DNA of 64,000 bases, taken from positions 3,924,501-3,988,500 of the forward strand of contig NZ_BSDR01000001.1 in the NCBI RefSeq assembly GCF_027925305.1, in the 5' to 3' direction. Shown here piece after piece: positions 5,930 to 45,335 of the stretch. A model generated the notes under the pieces. The model was not told the origin of the DNA, did no database searches, and saw only the letters and a list, made by a program, of their open reading frames with translations. The stretch comes from Desulforhabdus amnigena. Lineage in GTDB: Bacteria > Desulfobacterota > Syntrophobacteria > Syntrophobacterales > Syntrophobacteraceae. The first letter of the stretch is position 1. Each line of letters opens with the position of its first letter. The position numbers and the translations under genes are program-made.

Positions 5930-7878
5930 GCGGTAGAGAAACGGATACTCCGAATATAGCGTATAGCCGGGTGGGACTCATTGCAGGGAGCGGTCAATTT
6001 CCGCTCCTTTTTGCTCATGCAGCCAGCCAGGCCGGTGTTGAGGTCGTCGCTGTGGGATTTGAAGGTGAAACCGACCCCATGCTGGCAAAATACGTCACCG
6101 AGTTCCACCTGTTGAAGCTCGGGCAGCTCAACCGCCTGATCAAGGTTTTCAAGAAGACCAGCATTTCTCATGCCGCCATGGCCGGGGCCATCAACAAAAC
6201 GAAGCTTTATGCCCGCATACGCCCGGATTGGCGTGCAGTCAAGCTGTTGAACCGGGTCCTGAACAAAAAGGACGATTTCCTCCTGAGAGCCTTGGCCGAA
6301 GAACTGGAATCGGAGGGGATATACATCGAGTCTTCGACCCTGTTTCTGCCATCCCTTCTGGCTCCCGAAGGCATCTTGACCCGCCGCAAACCCAACCGCC
6401 GCGAACTGGCCGATATTTCCTTCGGGTGGCGCATGGCCAAAGCAGTGGGGCACCTGGATATCGGGCAGTGCATGGTGGTCAAGAACCAGGCGGTCCTGGC
6501 TGTTGAGGGCATCGACGGCACCGATGCGACCATCCTTCGTGGAGGACGCTTGTGCCGTGGCGGAGCGGTGGTCGTCAAGGTGAGCAAGCCGATTCAGGAT
6601 CTGCGATTTGACGTTCCGGCCGTGGGCCTGGACACTATCGAAACCATGAAACGTGTAGGGGCTCGCGTTCTGGTGGTCGAAGCAGGAAAAACGCTGGTTT
6701 TCGATCTTGATCGAATGATCGATGTCGCCGATGCGGCTGGAATCACTTTTCTGGTTCGAAGAGATGAAGAAGAGATTTCCGAGGATGCCGATTCCCGAAA
6801 TGTGGCGGTGGTGCACCCCCGGGACACGATTGGCAGGGGTGAGGTTCCCCCCCGGAAGGTTCAGAGCGCAGTGTTCATCCGGAAGCCCAAACCGGATGCT
6901 CTGCGGGTGGGGGTAATCGGCGTGGGATACTTGGGGCGGTTTCACGCGCAAAAATACGCGCGCCTTCCGGAGGCCGATCTCGTCGCTGTTGCAGATATCA
7001 ATGAAGCCCAGGCCAAAAAAGTGGCGGCAGAAGTGCAGACGGAAGGTGTAAGTGACTACCGCCGGCTTTTGGGTCGTGTCGATGCCGTGAGCATTGTGAC
7101 CCCCACCGTTCATCATTACGATGTGGCCAGGGAATTCCTGGCTGCCGGTGTCCATGTGCTGCTGGAAAAGCCCATGACCCATACCCTGGAAGAAGGGGAG
7201 CAGCTCATTCGATTGGCCCGGGAGAAGGGATGTATTCTGCAGGTGGGCCATCTGGAGCGTTTCAATTCCTCCTTTGTCGCCTTGTACCCGCGCCTCAGGA
7301 ACCCCATGTTCATCGAGGCCCACCGACTGGCTTTGTTCAACGAACGCGGCCTCGAGGTGGATGTTATCCTCGATCTCATGATTCATGATATCGACATCGC
7401 GCTCCATATCATCCAATCCCCCCTGGAACGCATTCACGCTGCGGGCGTATCGGTCCTGACCCCCCTGCCGGATATCGCCAGTGTCCGGCTGGAATTCGTC
7501 AACGGCGCCGTGGCCAATCTCACGGCGAGCCGGATGTCCCTCAAAAATATGCGAAAGCTCAGGGTTTTTCAGGAAGACTGCTATCTTTCGGCTGATTACG
7601 CCAACAAAAGAGCTTACGCCGTTTACAAGGAAGAGGAATCCGATGATGCGGGGTACCCGCAGATTTCCGTCGAAGAGCTGGAAATCGAAGCAAAAGACGC
7701 TCTCGAGGAAGAAATCAGCTCTTTTCTGAGGTCCGTGCGGACGGGGGAGAAGCCTTTCGTGGACGGCGTCCAGGGGCTGAGAGCCCTTGCCGTGGCATTG
7801 GATATATCTCATCAAATCGAAGAACAGATGCGTGGAAAATGGCATTCTCCCAAAAACCATCCATCAAAATCTTCCTGA
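5926..7878 (+). CDS. lpxI: Fused LpxI-type UDP-2,3-diacylglucosamine hydrolase / Gfo-Idh-MocA oxidoreductase
   Basis: One uninterrupted 650-residue ORF joins two proteins that are usually separate. Residues about 6-285 match LpxI (DUF1009), which hydrolyses UDP-2,3-diacylglucosamine to lipid X: the G-L-I-A-G-S-G-Q-F-P-L start and the V-E-G-I-D-G-T-D-A and V-G-L-D-T-I motifs are all present. Residues about 326-640 form a Gfo/Idh/MocA dehydrogenase with a Rossmann motif (V-I-G-V-G-Y-L-G near 330) and the family E-K-P motif at 414-416. In related genomes such an oxidoreductase sits beside lpxA-lpxB and may be GnnA-like, making 3-keto UDP-GlcNAc for amide-linked lipid A, but no gnnB aminotransferase is nearby. 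LpxI function is confident; the oxidoreductase substrate is inferred. Confidence 0.88.
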   Translation: MSGRETDTPNIAYSRVGLIAGSGQFPLLFAHAASQAGVEVVAVGFEGETDPMLAKYVTEFHLLKLGQLNRLIKVFKKTSISHAAMAGAINKTKLYARIRPDWRAVKLLNRVLNKKDDFLLRALAEELESEGIYIESSTLFLPSLLAPEGILTRRKPNRRELADISFGWRMAKAVGHLDIGQCMVVKNQAVLAVEGIDGTDATILRGGRLCRGGAVVVKVSKPIQDLRFDVPAVGLDTIETMKRVGARVLVVEAGKTLVFDLDRMIDVADAAGITFLVRRDEEEISEDADSRNVAVVHPRDTIGRGEVPPRKVQSAVFIRKPKPDALRVGVIGVGYLGRFHAQKYARLPEADLVAVADINEAQAKKVAAEVQTEGVSDYRRLLGRVDAVSIVTPTVHHYDVAREFLAAGVHVLLEKPMTHTLEEGEQLIRLAREKGCILQVGHLERFNSSFVALYPRLRNPMFIEAHRLALFNERGLEVDVILDLMIHDIDIALHIIQSPLERIHAAGVSVLTPLPDIASVRLEFVNGAVANLTASRMSLKNMRKLRVFQEDCYLSADYANKRAYAVYKEEESDDAGYPQISVEELEIEAKDALEEEISSFLRSVRTGEKPFVDGVQGLRALAVALDISHQIEEQMRGKWHSPKNHPSKSS

Positions 7879-19161: not shown

Positions 19162-19237
19162 GGGCCGTTAACTCAGCAGGTAGAGTATCTGCCTTTTAAG
19201 CAGAGAGTCGCCGGTTCGAATCCAGCACGGCCCACCA
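19162..19237 (+). tRNA. tRNA-Lys (TTT)
   Basis: The 76-base cloverleaf has acceptor stem GGGCCGT/ACGGCCC and anticodon stem TCTGC/GCAGA with loop CTTTTAA, giving anticodon UUU. It has the T-loop GGTTCGAATCC and an encoded CCA end. Confidence 0.96.
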
Positions 19238-19290: not shown

Positions 19291-19368
19291 GTCCCCATCG
19301 TCTAGCCCGGTCCAGGACACCGGCCTTTCACGCCGGCAACACCGGTTCAAATCCGGTTGGGGACGCCA
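19291..19368 (+). tRNA. tRNA-Glu (TTC), probable island attachment site
   Basis: The 78-base cloverleaf has acceptor stem GTCCCCA/TGGGGAC and anticodon stem CCGGC/GCCGG with loop CTTTCAC, giving anticodon UUC. It has the T-loop GGTTCAAATCC, G discriminator and encoded CCA. A decayed integrase points toward its 3' end 89 bases away, the standard arrangement for a tRNA attachment site. I could not find a second copy of the 3' end (attR) to the right. Confidence 0.96.
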
Positions 19369-19447: not shown

Positions 19448-19476
19448 AGCCCTCTCTCATAGGGCTTTTTCTTTTT
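19448..19476 (+). terminator. Intrinsic terminator after tRNA-Glu
   Basis: AGCCCT (19448-19453) and AGGGCT (19461-19466) form a stem with a 7-base loop followed by TTTTTCTTTTT, ending the tRNA transcript. Confidence 0.7.
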
Positions 19477-19956
19477 GATGCAAGGGAATCTCCTTTGCTG
19501 GCCCACGGTTTCCAAGAACCTCCAAAGCCTCCTTCATCTGCTCCGTTCCAAATCCCGAGACTCGCCAAATACCGTTCCGTAGTCGTCGGTGCTGGTGCCT
19601 CAAGATCTTCTGGATCTTACTCACCGGTTCTCCCGATTTGTACAGGATTACGGCGGTTAAATGCCTGATCGCATGCCAACCGAAAGCCTTCACGCCGGCA
19701 CGTTTGCAGAGCTTTTTCATGACATGCTGACGGATCCTGTAGAGAGGTCCAGGTTGATTGTTCTTCGATAGAGTATTGTCAAGCATCGTAAAAAAACGTA
19801 CTCTGGCTGTTTGTACGGTCTTTTCTGCCGCCACTTGAGCAGCGGGGTGATGCAAACAATTGAAAAATATAAAGTCGAATTGAGGGGATTGGTTCTTCCG
19901 GTTTTTATGCCCTGTAAGAGCTGCATGGGATAGCCCGGAGTCAGCGGGAGCGCCAC
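19457..19956 (-). pseudogene. Decayed tyrosine recombinase (integrase), C-terminal remnant
   Basis: The minus strand encodes the end of a phage-type integrase broken across frames. The motif G-W-H-A-I-R-H-L-T-A (catalytic H-x-x-R) and K-I-Q-K-I-L-R-H lie in one frame (19457-19855). The catalytic Tyr segment T-T-T-E-R-Y-L-A-S-L-G lies in a shifted frame at about 19550-19590, after which the original frame resumes with G-F-G-T-E-Q-M. Upstream, P-L-L-K-W-R-Q-K-R-P-Y-K-Q-P-E-Y-V-F lies in yet another frame, lost at an A7 run near 19789. Nothing N-terminal is recognisable. The gene is inactive and marks the left edge of the island. Confidence 0.78.
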
Positions 19957-20332: not shown

Positions 20333-23300
20333 ATGAAAGGATACATGACGGACTTCTTGAGGTATTCCACAACAGAGAAACTCCTAAGCGTTCTAAATGC
20401 TTCTTCATTTCCCCTCTCCACCAGAGACCTGGGAGCTCGACTGAGGTCTCACCGTTTTCGCATTCCAGACCACGAAATCGGAAGTATCCTTCGTGGCTTG
20501 CTGAACGAAGGTAAAGTGAAGTTCTTAGGAGGCCGCTGGGCAGCAAATCCTACTACTGAAGCAGTTCCGCCTTCAGCTCCTGCTGCTCTACCGCCGTTGA
20601 GCAAGGAGACACTTGACCTCTTGGACTGGAAATCCTATGGATCGGCAGGCGCTATCCCTTCGGCTACTATATCAGAAACCGAGCCTGATTCAGATACAGA
20701 CCACACTTATGTTTTTTCCGGACGATGGGACACTTTTCGCAGGTTGGTTGCCTATTATCGCCAATGCATTTGCCATGAAGAGGGTGCAGATGCTTCTGCA
20801 TTTCAAAATGAGCTGGGTAAACGTTTTCTCTACCTTCGTAGGCTCGGATGGTGGCATCCAAAACCTGGCATTCCATGGCAGACCATTATCCCGCTGGGAC
20901 CACATCTAGCGCCTCTACTCAACGCCTTGCCTGGGGGAAGTGAGGATCATGCTTTGGTGGTCGGCTATCCTGTTCAGGCGTATTACAAGGAAAGAGAGGG
21001 TGAACCGGGTGTTGCTGTCATTCGCCCCATTTTCTTTTTCACAGTGGAGACCACTGTCACGCAGGACGGCCTGATAGTCAGTTGCGATGAGCCCCGTCCT
21101 GAGGTGAACCTGGGATGGCTTGAATTTGCCTTTGCCCGCAATCTGGAACGACAGCGAAGCTTCCTTTCTGCGTGTGGCTTTCTCAATCGGGGTAGGCCCA
21201 TCGATGAACCGCCTGCTCTGGAACGAGTTGAGCGAATCCCTGGCCTTAAAAACTTGGTCGCTGCCCTGTCGGCGTTCATGACTGAAAAAGTTCGAGAACC
21301 ATTGCACATCGAAAGCGTGCCGGACTATCCGCTCACCGAGCCTTTTCCGTCAGGCATCTATAACCGAGCCGTGCTGATGCTGGCCAAGAGGACGAAGTTC
21401 ACAGCCACTCTGCTTAAAGAACTCGCAGCCATTGAACGTGCCCCGGATGATGTTCTGGACCGTACGGCGCTTCGTTATGTTTTCGCCACCGACCGTATTC
21501 AGGAGACGATTGAAGATCTCCTTCATGAGGCTATCGTTGCAGATACCAGCACCCTTAACGCCGAGCAGCGGCTGGCAACAGCCTCACTCCTCGTTAGAAA
21601 CGTGACCGTTGTTACCGGTCCTCCAGGCACCGGCAAGAGTCAAGTAGTCAGTAGCACTGTGGCCAATGCCCGACTACGGGATCAGACAGTTCTATTTGCA
21701 AGCAGAAATCATAAGGCCATTGATGCGGTGATCGGACGGCTTTCCGACTCCGAGGGGCGACCGCTCATAGTGCGTACCAACTCTAAAGATGATCCCAGCT
21801 TGAATTATACCTTTTCAGATGCCATTCGTGAGATGCTTGATGCACCACCTCGACCTGAGATCGGTGAGCGATTTAAGCGGATTAGAGAAGATTTGCTCGC
21901 ACTGCTCGACGAACGTGGTAGAAAAGTGGGTGTGGCTCGCCGGACGGCGGAGACTGCAATGACCCTGGGGGAATTGGAAGAGCGAAGAAGCTATATTGCC
22001 AAAAGCCTCCCTCAAGAAATGGCTCTATTTCTCGATACCGAACCTGAACAATTTCCCGCAAAAGCCATGCAGAAGGTAATGCGGGCTGTCCGGACTCTGC
22101 ATGCACGGTCACAGGAAGACACTCTTTCAGCCAAGTTCAGTCTTTTGCTTCATGGCTGCATGATCTTCCCCTGGTACAGGGTGGCCCGTCGTAAGCTGCG
22201 CGGTATCCCGAAGGTTTCACCACTGCCTGCTTTTCCCGGACCATCGGTCCTCAGGGGCCTGACTCCCGAGCTGTCTCTTTTGGAAAAAGCTTTGGAGTAC
22301 GTCCGCCTCAGGATCGAGTGCATTCCATTTGAAGCAAGACTGAGCGAATTGCCCCAGGCGGAGGCTACAACCGCTGAAGTCGGCAGCCTCTCGAAACGCA
22401 TTGAAGAAATTGCGCTTCGGGCAATACCTCTCGACTTGGACAGCCGATGTAACCTTGACGGTTCAATCAACCGTGAACAGTTGGATGGCTTGCGTGCCGC
22501 ATTGAATGCGATGCGCACAGGGCTTGACGAAGGGTTTATCCGCCAGGAGACTATAAGGGTTCTTGAAGAACGAGCAGTTCACATCCTCAAGGCGTTTCCT
22601 TGTTGGGCGGTGACAAGCCTCTCGGCCGGATCGCGTATTCCTTTGATAGCCGGGTTGTTTGATCTGGCCATTGTAGATGAAGCAAGCCAATCGGATATTC
22701 CATCCGCTATCCCCATTCTTTATCGAGCCCGAAGAGCAGGGGTTGTGGGTGACCCTTTCCAGCTAACTTATGCCTCCCGCCTGACCACGGCCAGGGACAC
22801 GATGCTTCGAAGGAAGGCGGGGCTCAAGCGAGTAGAAGATATGCGATTTGCCTACACCGAAAGCTCTCTCTATGACCTTTTTGCCGGTACAAACGGTGTG
22901 GAACCGGTATTCCTCAGTGAGACCTATCGCAGCACCGAGCAGATTGCCAACTACTCCAGTCGTACCTTTTACAACGGCAGACTGAGAGTGGCCACTGAAG
23001 AACAGCGCCTCACTCCACCCCGAGGTATGTCCACGGGAATCCACTGGACGGAGGTAAACGGTGAAATACGCAGCGGAGGTGGTAGTGGCTGTACCTGCCG
23101 TGAAGAGGTGAGCGAAGTTGTGCAGATCATGCGAACCCTGCTTCTGGAAAACAACTTCTTGGGAACTGCCGGAGTCGTAACCCCTTTTCGGCAGCAGGCA
23201 AACCGTTTGAGGGATGCTCTTTTTGAGGATGATCCCAGACTCTACGAGGCCCTCCTCCGGGCCAAAGTCCATGTGGATACCGCCCACGGTTTCCAGGGTG

Positions 23301-23860
23301 ATGAACGAGACATCATCATATTCAGTCTTTGTGCAGGACCCGAAATGCCGATAGGATCCAGATCCTTTCTGCGCGAAACCGGTAATCTTTTCAACGTGGC
23401 TGTGAGTCGTGCTCGAGCCGTGTTGCATATTGTGGGCAACCGGGAATGGGCAAGACAGTGTGGCATTCAGCATATTGAAGATCTGGCGTCACCGCGGGAA
23501 CGGTCACCTGGGATAGCCCAAAGCGGGCCCTGGCATCCCCATGAGTCACCTTGGGAAGAAAAACTCTATCGGGCGCTCGTTGAAGCGGGGCTTGAACCTC
23601 GGCCTCAGTTCCCGGTGTCCGGAAGGCGACTGGATCTTGCTCTAATCCGTCAGGGCGAAAGGCCGCTCAAGATCGACATTGAGGTGGATGGCGACTGCCA
23701 CCGAAATCCCGATGGAACCCGCAAGATGGATGACCTCTGGCGCGATCTCCAACTCCACGGTATGGGCTGGAAAGTAATGAGGTTCTGGACCTACAGGCTC
23801 CGAGAGGATATGCGGGGTTGCGTGGAACAAATCCAAAAGGCATGGAGCGAAAATGAGTGA
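20333..23860 (+). CDS. cnuH: CoCoNuT-like SF1 (UPF1/DNA2-type) helicase with C-terminal Vsr/DUF559-like nuclease
   Basis: The 1175-residue protein has three visible parts. Residues about 5-70 form a winged-helix-like domain. A large SF1B helicase core follows, with Walker A G-P-P-G-T-G-K-S at 429-436, motif II D-E-A-S at 782-785, G-D-P-F-Q-L near 806, motif V H-G-F-Q-G-D-E near 985 and motif VI N-V-A-V-S-R-A-R near 1021. Residues about 1060-1175 match the Vsr/DUF559 fold, with E-V-D-G-D-C-H near 1117 and a C-terminal G-W-K-V-M-R-F-W. UPF1-like helicases act on RNA or DNA. An ATG at 20345 is an alternative start. It overlaps the next gene by 8 bases and heads the operon. The name cnuH is used by analogy with CoCoNuT systems. 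Confidence 0.85.
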   Translation: MKGYMTDFLRYSTTEKLLSVLNASSFPLSTRDLGARLRSHRFRIPDHEIGSILRGLLNEGKVKFLGGRWAANPTTEAVPPSAPAALPPLSKETLDLLDWKSYGSAGAIPSATISETEPDSDTDHTYVFSGRWDTFRRLVAYYRQCICHEEGADASAFQNELGKRFLYLRRLGWWHPKPGIPWQTIIPLGPHLAPLLNALPGGSEDHALVVGYPVQAYYKEREGEPGVAVIRPIFFFTVETTVTQDGLIVSCDEPRPEVNLGWLEFAFARNLERQRSFLSACGFLNRGRPIDEPPALERVERIPGLKNLVAALSAFMTEKVREPLHIESVPDYPLTEPFPSGIYNRAVLMLAKRTKFTATLLKELAAIERAPDDVLDRTALRYVFATDRIQETIEDLLHEAIVADTSTLNAEQRLATASLLVRNVTVVTGPPGTGKSQVVSSTVANARLRDQTVLFASRNHKAIDAVIGRLSDSEGRPLIVRTNSKDDPSLNYTFSDAIREMLDAPPRPEIGERFKRIREDLLALLDERGRKVGVARRTAETAMTLGELEERRSYIAKSLPQEMALFLDTEPEQFPAKAMQKVMRAVRTLHARSQEDTLSAKFSLLLHGCMIFPWYRVARRKLRGIPKVSPLPAFPGPSVLRGLTPELSLLEKALEYVRLRIECIPFEARLSELPQAEATTAEVGSLSKRIEEIALRAIPLDLDSRCNLDGSINREQLDGLRAALNAMRTGLDEGFIRQETIRVLEERAVHILKAFPCWAVTSLSAGSRIPLIAGLFDLAIVDEASQSDIPSAIPILYRARRAGVVGDPFQLTYASRLTTARDTMLRRKAGLKRVEDMRFAYTESSLYDLFAGTNGVEPVFLSETYRSTEQIANYSSRTFYNGRLRVATEEQRLTPPRGMSTGIHWTEVNGEIRSGGGSGCTCREEVSEVVQIMRTLLLENNFLGTAGVVTPFRQQANRLRDALFEDDPRLYEALLRAKVHVDTAHGFQGDERDIIIFSLCAGPEMPIGSRSFLRETGNLFNVAVSRARAVLHIVGNREWARQCGIQHIEDLASPRERSPGIAQSGPWHPHESPWEEKLYRALVEAGLEPRPQFPVSGRRLDLALIRQGERPLKIDIEVDGDCHRNPDGTRKMDDLWRDLQLHGMGWKVMRFWTYRLREDMRGCVEQIQKAWSENE

Positions 23861-25190
23861 AACGATGTATGGACAGACGAACCAGGTTCAGCCTCAAGCG
23901 GCAGTTGGATCGGAGCAGAAGAGAACGAACATACTAACCTTTCCGTCCGTTGCTTTGATGGGCACTGCGGTTTTTGTGGTCGTCCTGATGATGGTCTTGT
24001 CAGGCTGGAAAATAGTGAATCTGGAGAAGGAACGTGCTCAGATCGATGCCGATCGAAGACTTTTGGAGCGGGACCGACTGGCCTATTCAAAAATACAGGA
24101 GGAGCTCCCTACTCTCGAAGACCGGCGCCAGAATCTGATGGTTGAAATCAGTGAACTGGAGGGAAAGGTCCAGAGCTCGCGGACCGTTTTTGAAAGCCTG
24201 ACCGCTCAAAGAGATGCCGCTCGCTCTGACTTGGACAAGGCCAAAGCTTCGAGCAGCGAAGCTCAGGAAGCAGCTAAAAATGCCCGAGATACCTACGCGA
24301 GCATTCAAACGGAAATCCAGATAAAGCGACCTGAGTTGCAGAGTCTTGAGCAGAAGGTCGGAGCGCTAAGGAAGGAAGAACAAACGCTCAGGACTCAGCG
24401 GGACCAACTGCAACAGGAAATATCAAAGCTCCAGGCCGACGTTGCGGGACTTGAACAGCAGAAACAGAATAAGAAGCAGATACTTGACCAGATGAGTCAA
24501 GACGCAGGCGCTCTCCAGTCGCTCTCCACACGCTTCGGGACTATTGCAGACGCTCTCGAAGCATCTCGCAAAGAAGCGAACAGCGCTGTCGATAGCTTGA
24601 AAACTCAAGGCAAATCCCTGAGTCAGGGCATCGAGAGTCTGCAGAAGGAAGCCCAAAACTTCTCCAAACAAGCCCAAGGCCTTTCAAGTGATTCGGGAAG
24701 CCTGACAAAGACTATTAAAGAGTTGCAGGGTACCGCAAGAAGCGCCCAGCAGACATCAGAGGAGCTTCAAAAAGCCAATGTGACCCTGACCGAGTCCGTA
24801 GGCCAGATCGAAAGAATAGCGGCTGGAGTGGATAAAGGGCTCCAGCGCCTATCTCAGGCAGTAGATAGTTCAACAAGCAGTCTTGAGAACAGCGTTTCTT
24901 CTCTCGGCAAGGGTGCAAACAATCTTGATAAATCGGTTGGAACATTAGATGGAAATATTGGATCTCTGCAGGACAAGCTTTCGAAGATCGATGGGGCTAT
25001 CTCGAAATTTTCTGAAAAATCGACCGAAGCGGGGCGAACTGTGGAAGACTTTTCGAGAACTCGCGCCGATCTTGCCAACGAAATAGCTGTGTTGAAAGAC
25101 CTCTTGTCCCGTCTGCAGACAACGGAGGATACTCTCAAGGGCCTCGATCAGCGTATCAAGCAGGAACAAAACGGTGGGAAAAACCAGTAG
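23853..25190 (+). CDS. Membrane-anchored coiled-coil protein of the CoCoNuT-like operon
   Basis: The protein has 445 residues: a short polar N-terminus, one transmembrane helix (about 31-52) and then almost continuous heptad-rich coiled coil to the end. The latter half (about 215-400) is rich in Ser, Gln and Asn, resembling methyl-accepting or laminin-like helices. No enzymatic motif is present. It overlaps the helicase stop by 8 bases and precedes the McrB-like gene, which carries a similar transmembrane/coiled-coil half, so the two may form a hetero-oligomeric membrane scaffold. That is an inference. It corresponds in position to the accessory coiled-coil protein of CoCoNuT operons. Confidence 0.75.
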   Translation: MSETMYGQTNQVQPQAAVGSEQKRTNILTFPSVALMGTAVFVVVLMMVLSGWKIVNLEKERAQIDADRRLLERDRLAYSKIQEELPTLEDRRQNLMVEISELEGKVQSSRTVFESLTAQRDAARSDLDKAKASSSEAQEAAKNARDTYASIQTEIQIKRPELQSLEQKVGALRKEEQTLRTQRDQLQQEISKLQADVAGLEQQKQNKKQILDQMSQDAGALQSLSTRFGTIADALEASRKEANSAVDSLKTQGKSLSQGIESLQKEAQNFSKQAQGLSSDSGSLTKTIKELQGTARSAQQTSEELQKANVTLTESVGQIERIAAGVDKGLQRLSQAVDSSTSSLENSVSSLGKGANNLDKSVGTLDGNIGSLQDKLSKIDGAISKFSEKSTEAGRTVEDFSRTRADLANEIAVLKDLLSRLQTTEDTLKGLDQRIKQEQNGGKNQ

Positions 25191-25238
25191 TATGACGAAT
25201 ATGGCACCTGTGAGGAGTGAGAAAGAGAGGAAAATGAT

Positions 25239-27500
25239 ATGGATGGCGTGAGCATACCTTACCTTCCCACGAGCCTATGGATCCTGGCTGGAGCGATGAC
25301 GATCCTGATTTTGTTGGTAGTTTTCGGGTTCTATGTCGCCTGGAAGATATGGGCGAGAGATTTGGCTGAAACGGGTTCAGACCTGGCATCGCTGAAGGCG
25401 AGGAAGCTGGCACTTGAAAAAGACGTAGAGGCTCTTCGAGAATGGATTCAAAGTCAGAAGACCGAACTTGAACGCCTCAAGACGGAACGAGAAGACCAGG
25501 AGCGCATCCGATCCGTCCTTGCCGACCTTGAGCAGCAGTGTGCAATAAAGAACCAGGAGAATCAGACATTGCGCAACGAAGTGGGCGAACTGGAAAACCA
25601 ACGCCATCATCTTGCTCAAAGCCTGGAAAAGATGCAGCGAGAGATTGGTGATCTGGATGCGAAGCGAGCCGAGGCAGAAAGCATAGAGTCTCGGTTGGCC
25701 GAATTAAAATCTCGCCTGGAAGATGCTCAACAGACCCTTCGGAACCTGGCTGAATTGGAAGTCAAGCTCAACAGCCTCGCCAATGAAAAATCTGCAATGG
25801 AAAGAACCATCGCCGATCTCGAAAGTGAATCGGCGTTAGCTCGTGCTGAGGCAAACCGCCTGAAAGAGGAAGTTGGACAGAGCCGTATCGAAGCCGATCA
25901 AATCGCGCGGGAACTTATGCTTGTCCGAAAGGAAAAAGCTGAACTGGGTGTGATTGTAGATACATTGCGTCAGGAGCAGCATGCGCTCGAGCATTCTACT
26001 GAACGCTTGGAACAAAAAATTGAAGACCTCAAGGCATCAGCGCGTAGTGCCCAGAAGGAGGTGGAAAAGCAAGCCCTGCAAGCTCGGCAAGCAACGGCTG
26101 AAGCGGAGCGAGTCAGCCGTGAACTTGCGAGCTTACATAAAGACCAGCAACACATCGAAACCGAGGTGGATGGATTGAATGCTCGGAAGGCCATTCTCGA
26201 ACAGGAAATCCTTCGTCTGGAAGGAAAGCTGGGTTCAGGGTCGGGAGATGGTGAAGATCCTCTTGGTGCATATGCAGATCTTCTCAGAAAGGAACCTCTA
26301 TGTCTCAAGAGGGAAGTATTCACGGGAATAAGAGATGACCAGGATGAGTCGACCTTTCTTCACCAGGTCAGGAATGCACTCAGAAATGAAGGGCTGGTAT
26401 TTCCTTCGCGTATCATTGATGCATTTCACACATCTCTAAAGTGCCATGATATCAATCCAATTACGGTATTGGCCGGAGTATCGGGGACCGGCAAGACCTT
26501 ATTACCGGTTCGCTACGCGGAGCTCATGGGGATGCACCGGTTAGTAATGGCTGTTCAGCCTCGGTGGGATTCGCCCCAGGATATGTTCGGTTTCTATAAC
26601 TACCTTGAGAAGGAGTATAAGGCAACCGAGCTCTCCCGTGCTCTGGTGCGTATGGATCCTTACAACTACCCGGCAGATCAATTCCCTATGCTTGACTGCA
26701 AATGGACATGGGATCGACTCTTGCTCGTGCTCATTGATGAGATGAATCTTGCCCGAACAGAATACTACTTCAGCGAGTTTTTATCACGGCTCGAGTTGCG
26801 GCGTGCGGTGAAGGACCCATCCTTATCCACCAAGCGGAGCGAGGCCGAAATTGAACTTGATGCAGGTCCAGGAGAGCAACGCTTCCGGCTGTGGGTGGCA
26901 CACAATGTCTTCTTCGTGGGCACTATGAACGAAGATGAGACGACTCAGACCCTGTCCGATAAGGTTCTCGATCGTGCTAATGTGCTTCGTTTCGGAAAGC
27001 CGGATGAAAATGCCAGGGTCGTCAGGCAGGGCAATGGAAATCATGGTGCAAGTGAAAAGTATCTTTCTTACAAACAATGGCGCGGATGGCTGCGAGAATT
27101 CAAGGGAAACGACGAATGGGCTGAACAGGTTTCCAACTGGACGACCCGGCTCAATGCTGCACTGAATCGAGTGGGCCGCCCCTTCGGCTTTCGGGTCCTA
27201 CAAGCAATCGGGCATTATGTGGCAAACTATCCTCGTGTAGAAGACGGTGAGAGGTTCAAACTTGCCTTCGCTGATCAGGTCGAACAGAAGATCATCCCCA
27301 AGATTCGGGGCATAGACTTGAGTACTGATAATGCCAATGAATGTCTGAGCGAGGTGGAGGCGATTATCGCTGAACTTGGCGACCGTGATCTCAGCGATAC
27401 CTTTTCATCGGCTCGAAATGAAAGCAGAATGGTTGGGATGTTTCAATGGCGGGGCGTCACTCGCAGAGAAGAGGAGGATGCCCCAAGATATGCCCATTGA
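25239..27500 (+). CDS. cnuB: Membrane/coiled-coil McrB-type AAA+ GTPase
   Basis: The 753-residue protein has a transmembrane helix at about 14-36, a coiled coil of some 290 residues (about 42-340) and then an AAA+ domain of the McrB group. Walker A is G-V-S-G-T-G-K-T at 413-420, and Walker B ends L-I-D-E-M-N at 498-503. The McrB signature segment is G-T-M-N-E-D (561-566). In E. coli McrB this reads M-N-T-A-D, an NxxD spacing; here the spacing is NxD. McrB uses GTP hydrolysis to drive translocation and activate its McrC nuclease. GAGAGG lies eight bases before the ATG. Its stop overlaps the next start. Confidence 0.85.
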   Translation: MDGVSIPYLPTSLWILAGAMTILILLVVFGFYVAWKIWARDLAETGSDLASLKARKLALEKDVEALREWIQSQKTELERLKTEREDQERIRSVLADLEQQCAIKNQENQTLRNEVGELENQRHHLAQSLEKMQREIGDLDAKRAEAESIESRLAELKSRLEDAQQTLRNLAELEVKLNSLANEKSAMERTIADLESESALARAEANRLKEEVGQSRIEADQIARELMLVRKEKAELGVIVDTLRQEQHALEHSTERLEQKIEDLKASARSAQKEVEKQALQARQATAEAERVSRELASLHKDQQHIETEVDGLNARKAILEQEILRLEGKLGSGSGDGEDPLGAYADLLRKEPLCLKREVFTGIRDDQDESTFLHQVRNALRNEGLVFPSRIIDAFHTSLKCHDINPITVLAGVSGTGKTLLPVRYAELMGMHRLVMAVQPRWDSPQDMFGFYNYLEKEYKATELSRALVRMDPYNYPADQFPMLDCKWTWDRLLLVLIDEMNLARTEYYFSEFLSRLELRRAVKDPSLSTKRSEAEIELDAGPGEQRFRLWVAHNVFFVGTMNEDETTQTLSDKVLDRANVLRFGKPDENARVVRQGNGNHGASEKYLSYKQWRGWLREFKGNDEWAEQVSNWTTRLNAALNRVGRPFGFRVLQAIGHYVANYPRVEDGERFKLAFADQVEQKIIPKIRGIDLSTDNANECLSEVEAIIAELGDRDLSDTFSSARNESRMVGMFQWRGVTRREEEDAPRYAH

Positions 27501-29190
27501 CGTCCAACTCCATCTGTGGCCATGGTCTAGGGGGATCAGGGAAGAGACACCTGACCTTTCCTGTCCCTTCAAGTTCTGGGGTAGCCCTGTGGTCTCTTTG
27601 TCGAGGAGAGCCACACTCTATCTTCCCCGGCGCCATGAGAGGTTCCTCCCCTTCGGCCCCCCATTCGATACACGTGCAGGTGAATACCTTCTTTACGAGA
27701 CTCCCCACGGAGTATTGGCTGCAGGAAACACAGAGACAACAGATTCCACAGCAGAGATTCGCGTGCATATTGGGACATTGCGGGAGTCAATACGCCTTAG
27801 ACCTCAAGGCGCTAAGCGCATTCCCTCGCAATACGGTGGGGATCAAGAGAACGAGGGGACACGCCTCGCCAGTATAGTGATCGATTGGTCACAGTTCTTC
27901 GATGACCTCTTAGACAAAGCAAAGAAGGCAGGTGGCGAAAATCGACTTTCTTGGGCAGAGGCGATCAAGAGTATATTCGATGTTGCTGAAGATGCTAAGC
28001 AGCCGCGCAAGGCGCTGATCGTAGATATTGCCGAGCGTATGCGTAGCCGCTTACCCAGTATCGTTGCTGCGGCCCGGAGAATTCTTTATCGTGAACGGCT
28101 TATGCTTCCTGCTGGTCGCATAGCTGAAACGGACACCGCCTGTCTACGATGGATGGTACGCCAACCGGGAGATACGATGGCTCTCAAAGCGGCAGCGAAT
28201 CGCCAGAGATTACTCGGGATAGCACGGCGCGAGTCCTTCGATACGCTTGAAAACAGGGTGCTCAAGGATTTCATAGTCCGGTGTGCCATGGAAGGTCGTC
28301 GCTATGATAGGACGGAAGTGGGTGATAACCCGGGGCTGAGACAATCTCAAAGAGCATGCACAGTGCGCCAGTACCAGAATCTTTGCGCTGAGCTCAGTCG
28401 AATGGCGCTTTTCGATGGCGTTGCTGCTCCACCCCCTGTACCACAACCCAATTACGTGCTTCAGAATGATCTCCGCTATCGAGCGATCTGGCACCATTAT
28501 GTGCGATTATTGAAACGAGAGGAAGAAGAGGATTGCCTGTGGGATTGGCAGGCACGAACTTGGGCGGATGTCTGTCGCTTCTTGGTATGTGCGGCACTGT
28601 TCTCTTTGTCGTGTGAGGTACAGCGCAAGCTTTTTGTTGAAGAACAGCTGGCATCGGCGGTGAACCTGGTTGCTGAACAACGCTTGGGATGCCGCATTCT
28701 GGCCGGATCCGAACCCGGACCTTTTCTCGTTGGTCTGCGGAGCAGGCCTCGGAGCCGAGCGTCTATTCTGGAGGTTGTACATCCGGAGCATGCCGGAGAG
28801 CACCCTGCCACCCGATTGCTCGGAAGGACAGGTGGGCACCTGTACTTCGTTCTGACTCCGCTCGATGGTGGACGACGACTGGTTCTCATCATTTGGGCGG
28901 TACACACGGCGGCAGCAAAGGATCACCCATCGTGGAAGGAAATCGGCCTCTCTGCCGGGAATGCCCTGCAAGCGCATTTCCGTATCCTCGATGAACTGGG
29001 AGACCCCCTGTTTCCGCTTCTTCGCGGATTTGTAGTTGCAAGCGACATGGATTCCATGGCAGCGGATCTGCATCCGGGTATGAACGGGGATCTTCATCTC
29101 GTTCAGGTAGCAATCGACCAACGGTACTGGAGTGAGGCTCTGAACGGTATCATGCTTGTGATCGAGGACATTCTGGAGAGCGTCTTATGA
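27490..29190 (+). CDS. cnuC: McrC-like partner protein (DUF2357-type), nuclease residues not evident
   Basis: This 566-residue protein is encoded directly after the McrB-like GTPase with an 11-base overlap. The start at 27490 is chosen because AGGAGG (27472-27477) lies 12 bases upstream. ATGs at 27478 and 27376 are in frame but badly spaced or deep inside the previous gene. The N-terminal beta-rich half, the central R-R-I-L-Y-R-E and E-N-R-V-L-K-D-F segments, and the order after McrB fit McrC/DUF2357 proteins. In the C-terminal region, where PD-(D/E)xK nucleases carry D...(D/E)xK, I find L-V-L-I-I-W-A-V-H-T, so catalysis may be lost. The McrC assignment is by architecture and context and is less certain than the GTPase. 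Confidence 0.65.
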   Translation: MPIDVQLHLWPWSRGIREETPDLSCPFKFWGSPVVSLSRRATLYLPRRHERFLPFGPPFDTRAGEYLLYETPHGVLAAGNTETTDSTAEIRVHIGTLRESIRLRPQGAKRIPSQYGGDQENEGTRLASIVIDWSQFFDDLLDKAKKAGGENRLSWAEAIKSIFDVAEDAKQPRKALIVDIAERMRSRLPSIVAAARRILYRERLMLPAGRIAETDTACLRWMVRQPGDTMALKAAANRQRLLGIARRESFDTLENRVLKDFIVRCAMEGRRYDRTEVGDNPGLRQSQRACTVRQYQNLCAELSRMALFDGVAAPPPVPQPNYVLQNDLRYRAIWHHYVRLLKREEEEDCLWDWQARTWADVCRFLVCAALFSLSCEVQRKLFVEEQLASAVNLVAEQRLGCRILAGSEPGPFLVGLRSRPRSRASILEVVHPEHAGEHPATRLLGRTGGHLYFVLTPLDGGRRLVLIIWAVHTAAAKDHPSWKEIGLSAGNALQAHFRILDELGDPLFPLLRGFVVASDMDSMAADLHPGMNGDLHLVQVAIDQRYWSEALNGIMLVIEDILESVL

Positions 29191-32081
29191 AAACTGTGGT
29201 AGGCGTTTCGGCTTTCGGCCTCCAGGACTGCCTAGCCCTGCCCGACGCGCGCTGCCGCGAACTGGGATTCTATCCCACAAGCGCCATACTGCCGATGAAT
29301 CCTTTTGGTCGGATTCTTACTGGTGAAGAGGCATACAGAGAAAGGACACACGCAGGTCTGGAGTGGCCAGCTGAAGCGCGGATCGTTCCCGGCGAGCCCA
29401 TTCGGCGATCTCCCATATGTGTTGTGTGGAAGGCTCTGGTTGAAGCGGGGGACCGCATGACCCGCTGGGATGCCGGTCGCGGCGTATCTTTTTCTCTGGC
29501 TCGTATTCTTGCTAGCCACATCAAGGTATTGATAGCAGGCAGTCTTCCCAGAGAGCAGCGATTAGAGCATGGAGGCGACGAAGCAAAGTTCCCGACATCA
29601 GTAATCGCAATCCCTAACCACCTGGACGAATTTGGCCAGGAGCTTTTACTGCGGGAGCTTGCCGCCCTGGAATGTTCGGAGGCCATGCTGGTGTGGCGTC
29701 CGGTAGCTGCCGCCCTGGCCTGGTTAGCTAAAGTCTATCCACCGAGGGCTGATCGATGGCACATGGGTCAAAACGACCATATCCATGTGATCTATTTGGG
29801 GCCTGACGCCCTCGAGTTCACTACATTTCGTCTGCGTGTAAGAGAGCACCAGAATCGATACTATGTCCTACCCCTGAGGGACAGGCCAGGGGGCTCACTG
29901 CCACTGGCCGGTATGGACTGGGCGGGAGGACTTATCGAACAGTATTTTGAAAAGATCGATGAAGGTGCCTTCTGGCAGGCTTTCATTCAATTTCCTGAGA
30001 TATGGCAAGCTTTAGCGGAGACACAGTGGAATCCAAGTGATCTTCCACGGCCATGGAATCGAAGCCACAGCTGGACGCTTTGGAATCCACCTCCCGATCT
30101 TTGTCGGCGTATCTATGAAATCAGGGGCGAATCGTGCGCTTTACTGCGTCGGATCCTTAGGAAATCTTACGATCTGAGTTCCTGCAGGCCGACGGCTGGC
30201 TCTATCGGAGAGATACTTTCCCAGGAAGTGCACGACATGGCTCAACGTTTCCCTGGAGGCCGGCTGCGCGGGATGATCGTCTGCGGCTCGCTTGCACCAC
30301 GCACCATTCCCGCCTGGCTCGGCTCTAATTTGGAATCACTGGTATCCCGTGGGCTGAACATCGAAGGAAATCACTTAGAGCCCGAGGTCGGCCGCCTTTG
30401 GCTCAGCTCGAGTTGCGATGATCCCATTTCGGAAGGTGCCTTGATTTACGGCCAAAAAAGACTTGCTGAGATTCCTTCCTATCTTGATACTATGCCGCAG
30501 ATCTCCATTCTTGCCCAGGAAGGAGGACGGTTCTCATGGGTTCCACTACTGAAGGCTCATGAGGTTTTGGGAGGAGAGGAGCACAGGGATAGAGTAATGC
30601 GGCGGTTCCAACTGGATTCCGGCAAGCGAAATCTCCACGTCTATCTCTACAAGGGGTCCGTAACTGAGGCGCCCAAGAATACCCAAGATCCTTACGATTC
30701 TCGATCGATTCCATTGGAGGGTGTGACTCCGTGCCGGGCACGACTGGTGCGAGAAGTTGTGCGACGACTCGGGAGCGTAGAAGCCGTGCATCGCCATGCA
30801 TTCTCTCACACTGAAACTCCGGAAGCCCGCTATGCACATCGCTTCGCTGAAGAACTTTTCTCAACCCACCCTGGAGGGCAAGCCGGCACTCAGGAACCTA
30901 CTCCTGCAGAGATGGCTCGGACTCCGCTTCGACGTGCTATTTTCGATTTCCCGTCCACTCCCAAGCAGGACACGGTATTGAACATCGAAGTGCGTATCCG
31001 TCCTGCCAGCGGTTTGGCAAAAATAGAAATCCTGCCCGAGGATACTTCTTTTCTCCAAGGCGATAGGGTTCTACTCAATTATTCCACCATGCGTTTTGTA
31101 TCGAAGCTTCCCAGTCGCATGCGCGGCTGGCCGCGTATTGAGGAGATCGTTGTCGATCCTGACGATGGTGTCCTTCGTGATGGGATAAGGATAGTTGAAG
31201 CTTTTGAAAAGGCGACACCAATAGCCCGTGACTATATATGCCTTGTGGACGAATTGCGCGACAAGGTGATCAAAGGAACTACTGTAAAAATGGTTGCGGG
31301 CCTTCGGCTGTATCTTGGGGCGGTAGATCAAAACGGTCGGGCCTGCAGCTCGCTGGGTAATGAGATCATTCATCGTATAGCTTCCAAATTCTTGAGCGAT
31401 TTTCAGCTTCTTCAGTTGGAGAGGCGCAGAAACCTGCTGAACAAACTATTCACGCGGGCGGCATGGCTGTACGCTGCTACTCCCCCTGGCATTGTGGCCT
31501 ATATCCGAAATATTCTACAGACAGAGTGCAACCACCGGGAATGGAAATGGGAGTGGGCAATTGAAGCAGCCAGCCGAGTGTTTGTCGACCTGGAGGACTT
31601 CCGCCTACTCTTTCAGTCGATCGCTCGTCGGGCCCGGACTGGTCCAAGTGACGACAGGAGTTTTCCCATCCAAGCAGCACGGTCCCTTTGCCGTGTCTTG
31701 ATGCTCAGAAAGGAAAGTGAAAAAGGGCTTGACCGCGAGATGGCTCGGCTCTTCGCTGATCGCGCTTTACAGAGAATATTGAAAGAAGAACAAAAGCACA
31801 ATTTCAGGATGCTTTATTTTCAAATGATCCGGCTGTTGCTTTATCTCCTTCGTTTCCGCATCAGCGATCCATCATGTTTCGACCCCAATAGTTCTTCAAG
31901 TATCTCTGTGTTTGAAGAAGCAAAGAAGAGCATGGCACGTGCCCAGGATTTCTTTCCCAGGTATCACTCTAAGGTAGCGCAGACACAGAGGATCATTGAA
32001 GGATTCGATCAATATTTGCACTACGAAGGAACGGAAGACATGCTTCCTGTTCTTAGAGACTTGGCGGAAAAGGATTCATAG
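29187..32081 (+). CDS. cnuE: Hsp70-like protein with degenerate nucleotide-binding motifs
   Basis: The 964-residue protein starts within the previous stop (ATGA). Its first 430 residues follow the Hsp70 actin-like fold: A-I-P-N-H-L-D-E-F (141-149), R-P-V-A-A-A-L-A-W (171-179), a phosphate-2-like strand H-V-I-Y-L-G-P-D-A (200-208), G-M-D-W-A-G-G (242-248) and [12 protein letters not shown] near 365. The usual N-terminal D-L-G-T-T is replaced by V-S-A-F-G, and the phosphate-2 Asp by Tyr, so ATP binding is doubtful. The rest is helical and unrecognised. SrfB-like Hsp70 relatives are an alternative. Hsp70 homologues predicted to bind RNA occur in CoCoNuT operons, which fits this neighbourhood. 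Confidence 0.7.
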
Positions 32082-32100: not shown

Positions 32101-34527
32101 ATGAACATGCGATCCCATACTCAGATTTCTCCCTTGGCCGTACTCCGCACCTATTTCGGATACGACTCATTCCGTGGGCATCAGGAAGAGATCATACAGC
32201 ATCTCATGACTGGCGGGGACGCTTTGGTTTTGATGCCGACAGGCGGCGGTAAGTCTATCTGCTACCAGATACCTGCGGTGATTCGGAATGGAGTGGGAAT
32301 AGTCATATCTCCCCTGATTGCGCTTATGCAAGACCAGGTGGACGCCGTCCGCCAGCTTGGTATCCGGGCTGAATTCCTTAATTCAACCTTGAGTCCAAGG
32401 GAAGCCCGCACTGTCGAACTCAAAATGGTCTCTGGCGAGATCGATCTGATGTATGTGGCCCCCGAGCGACTCCTGACCACAGACTTTCAGCAGCTTCTAA
32501 AGAAAACGCAACTGGCGCTTTTCGCGATAGATGAAGCTCACTGCGTCTCCCAGTGGGGACACGATTTCCGCCCAGAATACCTTCAGCTTTCCATTCTCTC
32601 GGACCGCTTCCCGCACATTCCCCGCATTGCTCTCACCGCCACGGCAGACCTCGCGACACGCAGGGAAATCATCGAAAAGCTCAAGCTGGAGGATGCCAGG
32701 CAGTTCATCTCGAGCTTTGATAGGCCGAATATCTACTACCGAGTCGAATTGAAGGATAACGAAAAAGCCCAGCTCCTTGAATTCATTCAAACTGAACACC
32801 CGGGGGATTCCGGCATCGTTTATTGCCTCAGCCGAAAAAGAGTCGAGGCAACCGCAAAGTGGCTCTCGGAGAAGGGGCTAACTGCTCTCCCCTACCATGC
32901 AGGAATGGAGCAGGGCCTGCGTCTGATGCATCAGCGTCGATTCCTGCAGGAAGAGCGTGTGATCATGGTTGCCACCATTGCTTTCGGAATGGGCATAGAC
33001 AAGCCGGATGTGCGCTTTGTGGCTCACCTGGATCTGCCCAAGACCCTCGAGAGTTACTACCAGGAGACCGGTCGTGCCGGCCGTGACGGAGAGAGGGCCG
33101 ATGCCTGGATGGTCTACAGCCTTGCAGATGTGGTCGCCCTGAGGCAAATACTCGATGTCTCCGAGGGCAATGAGCAGTTCAAAAGGATTCAGCAACAAAA
33201 GATGCAAGCCATGCTCGGCTTCTGTGAGACTGCCAGATGCCGAAGGCAGGTCCTGCTCGGCTATTTTGGCGAGGATCTGTCCAAGTCCTGCGGCTTCTGT
33301 GACACCTGCAATGGGAAGATGGAAACCTGGGATGGGACTGTTGTCGCTCAGAAGGCACTTTCATGTATTTACCGCACCGGTCAACGGTTTGGGGCAGCTT
33401 ATCTCACGGATGTTCTTCTTGGAAAAGAAGACGAGCGGATTCTTCGCTACGGTCACGACAGAATCTCAACTTTTGGGGTTGGAAAGGAATTATCCGAGAG
33501 CGAGTGGAAATCTGTTTTCCGCCAACTTGTTGCCGCCGGTCTCCTCAGTGTCGATATCGAGGGAAAGGGGGGATTCAGCCTTGCACCATCCAGTCGGCCC
33601 GTCTTGAGAGGAGAGCAGAGGTTTGAGCTTCGGAAGGACCCGGTACCGGCAAAGAAGAGGAGGTCCTCGATACGGGAACTGGAGAGGGCAAGTGTTGCAT
33701 CGGATACCACTTCCGGAGGACTCTGGGAGAAGCTTCGCGTGTTGCGCCTCAAGATCGCCAGAGAGCAGTCAATTGCACCTTTCATGGTCTTTCACGACTC
33801 CACATTGAAGGAGATGGTCAGATATCTCCCCTGCACTCCTGAGGAGATGCGAAAGATTTCAGGTGTTGGTGAGAGGAAGCTCAAGTTCTATGGAGATCAG
33901 TTTCTTGCAGCCATCCGAAGCTACCTGGAAGGAAACCCTTTGCCGGAGGAAGAGGTTAGATTCGACTCTCCAGAGAGTGATGAGCGTAGTCGGGGTAAAT
34001 ATGAAGTGAGTTCTACCTCTACCCATTTGAGCACAAAGGAGCAGAAAGCCGAGGTGATTCGTCTCCTCAAAGAGGGGAAGCTGAATTCCGGTGAGATCGC
34101 CGAACGTGTCGGGGTGTCCCCGCCGACTGTGTGGGCGTACAAAGCCCATCTGACCATGGGAACTTACGGGGCCGATGGAGAAAGGGGGATCAACCGGGAT
34201 GCCGACCCTGTCCTCCCAGATACTACAGGAACTAATCGTTCGGATGATCCCCTTGGCTGCTTCCATGAGGATGAACTTTCTCTGGTCCGTTTGAAGGAGT
34301 TGATCATCAACAGACCGCTCAAGAGGCCGGACCACTCCATCACCGACAAAAGACTCCTTGAGCTCAGGAAGAAATACCGCAGGGCTTATGAGCCCTGGAG
34401 CGATGAGGAAGATGAGTGGCTTGTGAGTTCATACGGGAGAAAGCAGAACACTGCGGCTTTAGCTGAAGCACTTCAAAGACATCCAGGCGCCATAATGTCG
34501 CGGATTCGCAAACTTACAGGGAAGTGA
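32101..34527 (+). CDS. recQ: RecQ-family DNA helicase with C-terminal HTH and SANT-like domains
   Basis: The 808-residue protein is a 3'-5' SF2 helicase. It has Walker A T-G-G-G-K-S at 47-52, D-E-A-H at 144-147, the zinc-binding RQC cysteines (C-E-T-A-R-C-R-R and C-G-F-C-D-T-C near 375-402) and an HRDC domain (541-620). Beyond the usual RecQ length (about 600) lie a helix-turn-helix (about 646-690, [13 protein letters not shown]) and a C-terminal Myb/SANT-like segment (763-808, W-S-D-E-E-D-E-W-L). The start at 32101 follows the Hsp70-like stop by 19 bases; an earlier in-frame ATG lies inside that gene. It probably belongs to the same transcription unit. RecQ helicases occur in both housekeeping and defence settings. 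Confidence 0.88.
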
Positions 34528-43883: not shown

Positions 43884-45335
43884 TTATTTTCTTTCGTCGG
43901 CAGACCTTTCTTCAATCTGGTAATTGACTGTCACTTTGTCTGTCGACCCCGATGTCAGCTTGAGAGAAGGGGGAGTCAGTACAAGAGAGGTGGAAAGGGA
44001 ACCCGATTTGCTCAAGTTGTCCAACTTCACGGGAGCTGTGTAGAGCGTATTGACCTTTTCCAGGATCTTGCTGCCTCCAATGACTTTGACCACTTCGGGA
44101 ATGACCTTTGCTTTGATCAGGAGGAGGTTTTCAGGCAGGCGCCCCACCCAGTCCACTTGAATAGGCAATTCCTTGGTGATGGGGACGTCCAGGGTCACCT
44201 CAATGGTGGGCGGATAGACTTTGTTCAGGAAGACGCCCGGTGGAAGGACGATATTGTCCTGTGTGATGGGGAAGACATTGCGTCCTTCCGTAGCCTTACT
44301 GAGGTCCACACGCACCTGCACCTGCCCCGTCCGCAGGGACTTGATCAATGCACTGGAGCCGTAGAGTTGCAGCCGGGCTTCGTCCATGGATGTTTCGAGA
44401 ATTTCGAAATTGGGAGGACGATTGACGTACTCCACGGGAACGTTGAGGGCGATGATGGTGTCGTCGCTCCGCGTGAATCCGAACCAGATGCCGGTCATGA
44501 CAAGGAGGGAGAGTACCCCCGCCAGGGTGAGTTTCAGGCGTTCGCGTTTTTGTTGATCGACGGATACTCCATCCGAAAGGTTGAGATGCTTGCGCAGAAG
44601 TTGTGTCAATTCTTCCGGTTGAGCAATGGGCTTGATCCAGTTGTCCTTGGCGACGGTCACACGACCACGTTCTTCAGATACCACAACCACGAGAGCATCG
44701 GTACGCTCCGCCAAACCTGCAGCAGCTCGATGTCGCGTTCCATAAAAGGTGGGTAGGTCCTGGCGCTGGGAAAGGGGGAGGAGTACCCCCACTTCCGCGA
44801 CATGATTGCCGCGAATGATGACGGCTCCATCATGAACGGGGTTCTTGGGCCAGAAGATACTCACCAACATTTCCTGGGAAACGATGCCCTCCCAGGGAAT
44901 TCCCCCGTGGATCACTTCCGAAAGATCTTCCTTGCCGGGAAATACGATCAAAGCGCCGATGCGCTTTTTTCCCATTTGGTAGGCGCTTTCTGCAATGACT
45001 TCAACAGATGTGGCTTGTTCTCTGTTGGGAGATCCCCAAAGAAACGTTTTGAGATTCCTCACTTGAAGCGCAGTGCGGATTTCATTTCGAAAAACCACAA
45101 TGATGATAATGGCCGCAGCCGTAGTGATGCCCCTGATGGCCCAGCTGGTCAATATCAATCCGAGGGATGCGGCAACCTCCTGGAGGATCCAGAGGGAAGT
45201 GATGCCAACCAGAACGCGAAAGGCATTGGTTCCCTGAAAAAGGACATATACCCTGTACAAGATGTAGCTGTTGATGATGATGTCTACAAGGTCTTGCCAC
45301 CGGATGGTTGCGAGAAAGGCGAAAAATCGTGTCAT
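43884..45335 (-). CDS. cdaA: Fused diadenylate cyclase CdaA / CdaR (YbbR) regulator
   Basis: This 483-residue membrane protein makes c-di-AMP from two ATP. Residues about 10-85 contain three transmembrane helices. The DAC domain follows, with the catalytic motifs D-G-A at 169-171 and R-H-R at 201-203. A fourth membrane helix (about 270-290) then leads into YbbR-like repeats (about 295-475), the extracytoplasmic domain of CdaR. In Firmicutes CdaA and CdaR are separate adjacent genes; here they form one polypeptide. Translation of a DUF2914 gene ends 16 bases before this start, so the two form an operon. Confidence 0.9.
   Translation of the reverse strand: MTRFFAFLATIRWQDLVDIIINSYILYRVYVLFQGTNAFRVLVGITSLWILQEVAASLGLILTSWAIRGITTAAAIIIIVVFRNEIRTALQVRNLKTFLWGSPNREQATSVEVIAESAYQMGKKRIGALIVFPGKEDLSEVIHGGIPWEGIVSQEMLVSIFWPKNPVHDGAVIIRGNHVAEVGVLLPLSQRQDLPTFYGTRHRAAAGLAERTDALVVVVSEERGRVTVAKDNWIKPIAQPEELTQLLRKHLNLSDGVSVDQQKRERLKLTLAGVLSLLVMTGIWFGFTRSDDTIIALNVPVEYVNRPPNFEILETSMDEARLQLYGSSALIKSLRTGQVQVRVDLSKATEGRNVFPITQDNIVLPPGVFLNKVYPPTIEVTLDVPITKELPIQVDWVGRLPENLLLIKAKVIPEVVKVIGGSKILEKVNTLYTAPVKLDNLSKSGSLSTSLVLTPPSLKLTSGSTDKVTVNYQIEERSADERK

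Follow-up and report, generated by a model that had tools for sequence, protein, structure and literature searches.

A stretch of 64,000 nucleotides from the genome of Desulforhabdus amnigena, analysed as a whole and hereafter called the window, carries a five-gene operon at 20333-32081 whose products include a McrB-type GTPase and two coiled-coil proteins with membrane segments, and it raises the question of which McrBC-related system is encoded and where in the cell such a system would act. The operon constitutes a full Type III-B CoCoNuT, CnuH-A-B-C-D, and matches the published system gene for gene. It appears to be a further case of a published, predicted family of anti-viral systems, in which the conserved membrane anchors of CnuA and CnuB are apparently the new part. 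Type III-B was defined by Bell et al. (eLife 2024, PMC11090510) as possessing a CnuH with a fused Vsr nuclease, a separate coiled-coil CnuA, a coiled-coil CnuB with an NxD motif, a CnuC with an Ig-like domain and an inactivated nuclease, a separate Hsp70-like CnuD, and no TerY-P.

The five open reading frames (ORFs) of the operon are all intact and lie on one strand, joined in order by an 8-base overlap, a 48-base gap, an overlap of 11 or 23 bases depending on the cnuC start, and a 4-base overlap. The operon ends at these five genes, with tRNAs and an integrase remnant on one flank and recQ on the other, and the TerY-P triad is not part of it. A preliminary description of the window had listed five overlapping or closely spaced genes, read them as a CoCoNuT-like operon and placed them between an integrase remnant and recQ. 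The ORFs were found where it had put them and on the same strand, the measured junctions agree with its account, and a minus-strand Phage_integrase remnant 5' and a RecQ gene 3' of the operon were recovered.

Table 1. Features of the Type III-B CoCoNuT operon and of its flanks, in window positions
Feature	Position	Strand	Description
cnuH	20333..23860	+	1175 amino acids (aa); UPF1-like superfamily 1 (SF1) helicase with fused C-terminal Vsr/DUF559 (PD-(D/E)xK-like) nuclease
cnuA	23853..25190	+	445 aa; N-terminal transmembrane (TM) segment (about 25-52), then long coiled coil without cysteine
cnuB	25239..27500	+	753 aa; N-terminal TM segment (about 3-35), coiled coil, McrB-type GTPase
cnuC	27478..29190	+	570 aa (alternative ATG start 27490); McrC homologue with Ig-like N-domain, DUF2357 and nuclease-fold C-domain without catalytic residues
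cnuD	29187..32081	+	964 aa; divergent Hsp70 (nucleotide-binding domain, NBD, and substrate-binding domain, SBD), then C-terminal helical repeats
tRNA-Lys	19162..19237		Upstream of operon, paired with tRNA-Glu
tRNA-Glu(TTC)	19291..19368	+	Integration hotspot, left edge of inserted block
Tyrosine recombinase remnant	19457..19855	-	C-terminal part of integrase; Phage_integrase E 2.7e-7, profile 111-158 only
recQ	32101..34527	+	Helicase with extra C-terminal helix-turn-helix; outside conserved CoCoNuT set

The domain content of each protein was established from Pfam, sequence alignments and predicted structures, and bears out the domains first described: AAA_11/AAA_12 with REase_MTES_1575/DUF559, coiled coils, AAA_5 and DUF2357 by Pfam, and DnaK by profile and fold for the fifth protein. 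CnuH matched AAA_12 (8e-26), AAA_11 (3e-17), REase_MTES_1575 (2.5e-12) and DUF559 (1.5e-6), and both its helicase motifs (Walker A GPPGTGKS at 429-436 and DEAS at 782-785) and its Vsr-type residues E1075, D1101, E1117, D1119, H1123, D1134 and R1137 are kept across 53 homologues at a frequency of about 91% or more. In CnuC, DUF2357 was recognised at 5.6e-7, and the AlphaFold (AF2) model (predicted local distance difference test score, pLDDT, 88.9) had as its top Foldseek match E. coli McrC (6hz4_M, E 7.5e-7), spanning residues 127-567; comparison with McrC 6ut6_G (VIA) gave a Z of 9.1 over 271 residues with a root-mean-square deviation of 10.6. Ig-like folds matched about residues 3-114 of the same model. 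An alignment of 29 CnuC homologues showed the D...(D/E)xK pattern to be absent from the nuclease strands, with VWxxH in its place. The sole intact nuclease of the system is the Vsr-like domain fused to the helicase, which makes CnuH the likely effector. CnuD had no Pfam match and only weakly matched a DnaK NBD profile (E 9e-4); its AF2 model (pLDDT 89.0) matched DnaK 7kzu by Foldseek at E 1.3e-10, with DnaK and other Hsp70 proteins aligned over both NBD and SBD, and is followed at the C-terminus by a helical, putatively HEAT-like region (722-961).

CnuA matched coiled-coil profiles and no other recognised Pfam domain, and its hydropathy peak reaches a 19-residue Kyte-Doolittle mean of 2.44 at residue 33. 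CnuB was assigned to AAA_5, with GVSGTGKT as its Walker A and a signature of the NxD form (NEDE), GTMNEDET, preceded by a coiled coil at about residues 40-330 with multiple coiled-coil and SMC profile matches. Its GTPase domain had no match among the sequences of solved structures at E 0.01. In a tree of 102 GTPase domains, some deep forks of which are weakly supported, the NxD motif was present in all the GTPases compared. The window protein sits in a supported group of 64 rows (96/93) made up of III-B-type loci, within which it is placed with Desulfobacterota III-B proteins (sets of 13 and 14 rows starred in the tree) and has locus L037 as its nearest relative at 82% identity. The III-C GTPases form a clade of their own, and those of III-A lie outside the III-B/III-C group. 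The CoCoNuT reading of the preliminary description is thus supported and narrowed to Type III-B by the NxD motif, the clade of the GTPase and the wide co-occurrence of the five genes described below. A grouping with MoxR was not seen, and a MoxR-like or other AAA+ identity for CnuB was ruled out by motif and tree position together. In locus L044 (Candidatus Adiutrix), NDDK replaces NEDE and the stretch after Walker B is altered (DEMNLAQPE), perhaps marking a degenerating copy.

Relatives were gathered from 395 genomes of the phylum and from scans of genome_contigs, plasmid records and viral contigs, which yielded 77 distinct III-B-like loci. The genes stand in the order H-A-B-C-D in 42 of these loci, across several phyla, so that the five-gene set is not a product of chance; the co-occurrence on which the initial reading depended is widespread. 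Among all III-B-like loci 172 of 256 junctions overlap, with a median spacing of -4 bases. Hosts extend far beyond the Alphaproteobacteria, and close homologues (identity 53% or more) are present in 7 of the 395 phylum genomes, that of the window included. About ten loci (L054, L055, L056, L061, L059, L073, L085, L097, L099 and L101), mostly from Verrucomicrobiota, Lentisphaerota, Kiritimatiellota, Planctomycetota, a Clostridia bin and Anaerobiospirillum, carry cnuH at the 3' end (A-B-C-D-H) and possibly constitute a separate subtype. Of the loci with neither arrangement, most are truncated by contig ends. A scan of viral contigs with a single GTPase gave no match; with an alignment it gave one III-B locus, L117. 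Plasmid records searched with CnuD alone gave nothing at E 1e-5, an outcome presumably due to the rapid divergence of this protein.

Several individual relatives depart from the common layout. L117 is a complete H-A-B-C-D set on a 62 kb IMG/VR contig, and III-B may therefore travel on a mobile or prophage-like element. At L040:2309-5144, an A-B-C-D set whose CnuB is 62% identical to that of the window has no helicase upstream; a 617-aa ORF without a Pfam or PADLOC match and an RNase_H_2 protein stand in its place, a possible swap of effector. CnuC/CnuD-type ORFs of 1502, 977 and 1042 aa in L063, L083 and L095, respectively, point to possible C-D or other fusions in systems other than Type III-A, and L045 and L049 contain oversized CnuB ORFs of 1346 and 1443 aa.

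An N-terminal stretch of 19 residues was counted as a membrane anchor when its Kyte-Doolittle hydropathy averaged 1.6 or more. Such an anchor is present in 62 of 63 III-B CnuA and 68 of 70 III-B CnuB proteins, and in one of 74 CnuC, two of 65 CnuD and two of 62 CnuH; the III-B exceptions are L084, where the ORF is mis-extended, L057, where CnuB is split, and L058, which is borderline. It occurs in none of the four III-A CnuB proteins and in six of nine CnuB proteins of cyanobacterial Type III-C (L031, L065, L096, L100, L104 and L112), so membrane association may extend to Type III-C. The main text of Bell et al. never applies the word 'transmembrane' to III-B, reserving it for CoCoPALM, EssC-like, ShdA and ancillary proteins, although the supplement could mention it, and excerpts from the Bell preprint and from a 2025 YprA paper contain no mention of III-B membrane segments. 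The anchors of CnuA and CnuB suggest that Type III-B systems may act at the cell membrane.

The orientation of the two proteins was read from the net charge before and after the TM segment. In CnuB the charge is lower before the segment than after it in 48 of 68 proteins and the reverse in six, as expected for a GTPase on the cytoplasmic side, and coil and GTPase of CnuB are predicted to be cytoplasmic. CnuA shows the opposite bias, with a higher charge before the segment in 48 of 61 proteins, which predicts an N-in/C-out arrangement with a periplasmic coil. Upon clustering at 60% identity this contrast survives, the counts of proteins with higher against lower charge before the segment being 17 vs 4 for CnuA and 1 vs 24 for CnuB. 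In 52 of 60 loci the CnuA coil contains no cysteine, compared with 27 of 60 for the CnuB coil (p 1.5e-4, a guide only, as are all such values here, given that III-B loci are mutually related), in agreement with a periplasmic CnuA. The orientation of CnuA is thus moderately supported by charge bias and cysteine depletion, and we consider its coil rather probably periplasmic. The same system could instead have both coils in the cytoplasm, with CnuA oriented N-out/C-in like CnuB and its coil joined to that of CnuB in a scaffold, the role of the anchors being limited to concentrating the complex at the membrane. Bell et al. proposed that CnuA might pair with other Cnu proteins through coiled coils, some CnuA tails are weakly charged, and nine of the 61 CnuA proteins carry the reverse bias; this arrangement nevertheless runs counter to the prevailing CnuA charge bias and to the cysteine depletion of its coil relative to that of CnuB, and we judge it unlikely, though it deserves serious weight. 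Anchoring by two coiled-coil proteins, as first proposed for the window, is supported and proves general to III-B; what has changed is the arrangement, since opposite predicted orientations mean that CnuA and CnuB may not simply be two cytoplasmic coils side by side.

The window operon probably encodes an anti-phage system. As one explanation of how it might work, which we hold to be reasonably likely, a membrane-tethered Type III-B CoCoNuT would operate as follows. CnuB would assemble into a McrB-like GTPase ring held at the inner membrane through its N-terminal helices, coil and GTPase both lying in the cytoplasm, and CnuC would dock on this ring and stimulate GTP hydrolysis, its dead nuclease domain merely binding nucleic acid, so that the pair would constitute a GTP-driven switch. 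CnuD, presumably a weak Hsp70-type ATPase, would serve as the recognition subunit for RNA or a phage polypeptide, and CnuA would be a signal-anchor protein whose coil, most likely periplasmic, senses or organises the entry site. Activation would recruit CnuH to unwind the captured nucleic acid and cut it through the Vsr domain, the membrane tether positioning the system at the site where phage nucleic acid enters. More tentatively, and with somewhat less confidence than an even chance would warrant, Type III-B may be pictured as a trans-envelope immune device, in which CnuA acts as a periplasmic coiled-coil sensor and CnuB as an oppositely oriented tethered GTPase ring, so that a phage-entry signal would be relayed to the helicase-nuclease at the inner membrane face.

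Several points weigh against the membrane-tethered mechanism. The window proteins themselves have charges before and after the TM segment of +1 vs -1 for CnuA, a small difference, and -1 vs -1 for CnuB, which is nil, so the case for topology rests on the family. Two control families, FtsB-type proteins with a periplasmic coil (mean +0.86) and ATP synthase b subunits (AtpF) with a cytoplasmic coil (mean -1.79), fell in the right direction but were noisy, and the third, MotB, gave the wrong sign, one failure among three families. A charged residue in the TM helix and some wrong ORF picks account for the MotB result, which gives the charge method no support. The target may be RNA, which Bell et al. 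prefer from the analogy of III-A, or DNA, with which a Vsr-type fusion is equally compatible. The literature searched contained no experiments on CoCoNuT Types I-III, III-B included.

The membrane anchor on the GTPase could also point to an envelope or cell-division factor, a McrB-family protein co-opted at the membrane in the manner of PcdA or of CoCoPALM with its FtsB-like domain. There is precedent in PcdA, which is described in PMC10602043 as phage-restriction-derived and co-opted in Staphylococcus aureus. We regard this as improbable, as helicase and nuclease motifs are conserved in nearly all members, the distribution is patchy (the seven genomes of 395 noted above) with insertion as an island, restriction genes adjoin homologues, and Pfam found no DivIC/FtsB match in CnuB. 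Decay or inactivity of the defence system in the window, at which its neighbouring integrase fragment might hint, is more doubtful still given five intact genes with conserved catalytic motifs.

The surroundings of the operon are those of an insertion. In the only genome of the same genus compared (G296), the same flanking genes are about 1.9 kb apart vs about 16.6 kb in the window, the same tRNA pair flanks the shorter site, and neither CnuB nor RecQ was matched. Of the two genomes, only that of the window thus has the block running from after tRNA-Glu through recQ, which sits at a tRNA site, and recQ was apparently brought in together with the operon. No second copy of the tRNA-Glu 3' end that could serve as a right attachment site was found in the 64-kb window, with up to three mismatches allowed. 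Neighbours of relatives include HsdR (L037 and L091), a DrmD-like gene (L058) and Shedu (L033), which, like the inserted position, speaks for a defence role. Elsewhere in the window, a single 483-aa protein encoded on the minus strand (43884-45335) contains both a diadenylate cyclase (DAC) and YbbR domains, which usually belong to separate neighbouring genes, cdaA and cdaR, and a 650-aa ORF at 5926-7878 within a lipid A gene cluster joins LpxI to a Gfo/Idh/MocA oxidoreductase.

Among known systems, E. coli McrBC resembles the operon in its McrB-type GTPase and McrC partner, the fold of CnuC being that of McrC. It differs in that the window proteins have NxD rather than NxxD, an inactive McrC nuclease, a coiled coil and TM segment replacing the DNA-recognition domain, and an added helicase-nuclease and Hsp70; the NxD motif and the missing McrC catalytic residues rule out canonical McrBC (Type IV restriction). 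CoCoPALM, named by Bell et al., also combines an NxD GTPase with TM segment and coiled coil, and was ruled out since the FtsB-like domain and the signal-peptidase and pilus genes that distinguish it were not found in the operon, which has a helicase and an Hsp70 instead. Type III-C, as on Synechocystis plasmid pSYSX (L031), likewise has an operon that encodes CnuB, CnuC and CnuD together with a nuclease, and shares an N-terminal hydrophobic stretch in most of its CnuB proteins, but has a PLD nuclease rather than Vsr, another gene order and a separate GTPase clade. Type III-A (L034-L036 and L115) shares the CnuH helicase and an NxD GTPase with coiled coil; it differs in having a separate CnuE protein, a fused CnuC-CnuD and TerY-P, in the position of its GTPase outside the III-B/III-C group, and in a CnuB without a membrane segment, so that the CnuB anchor separates III-B from the III-A systems sampled.

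Against published Type III-B, the window operon has every feature tested. The published set is primarily alphaproteobacterial and the present host belongs to the Desulfobacterota (deltaproteobacterial); the main text of that paper reports no membrane segments, whereas anchors are conserved across the III-B loci compared here. CoCoNuTs have been predicted to act as complex immune systems directed at RNA or DNA, and paired anchors of opposite predicted topology hint at where those of Type III-B act.

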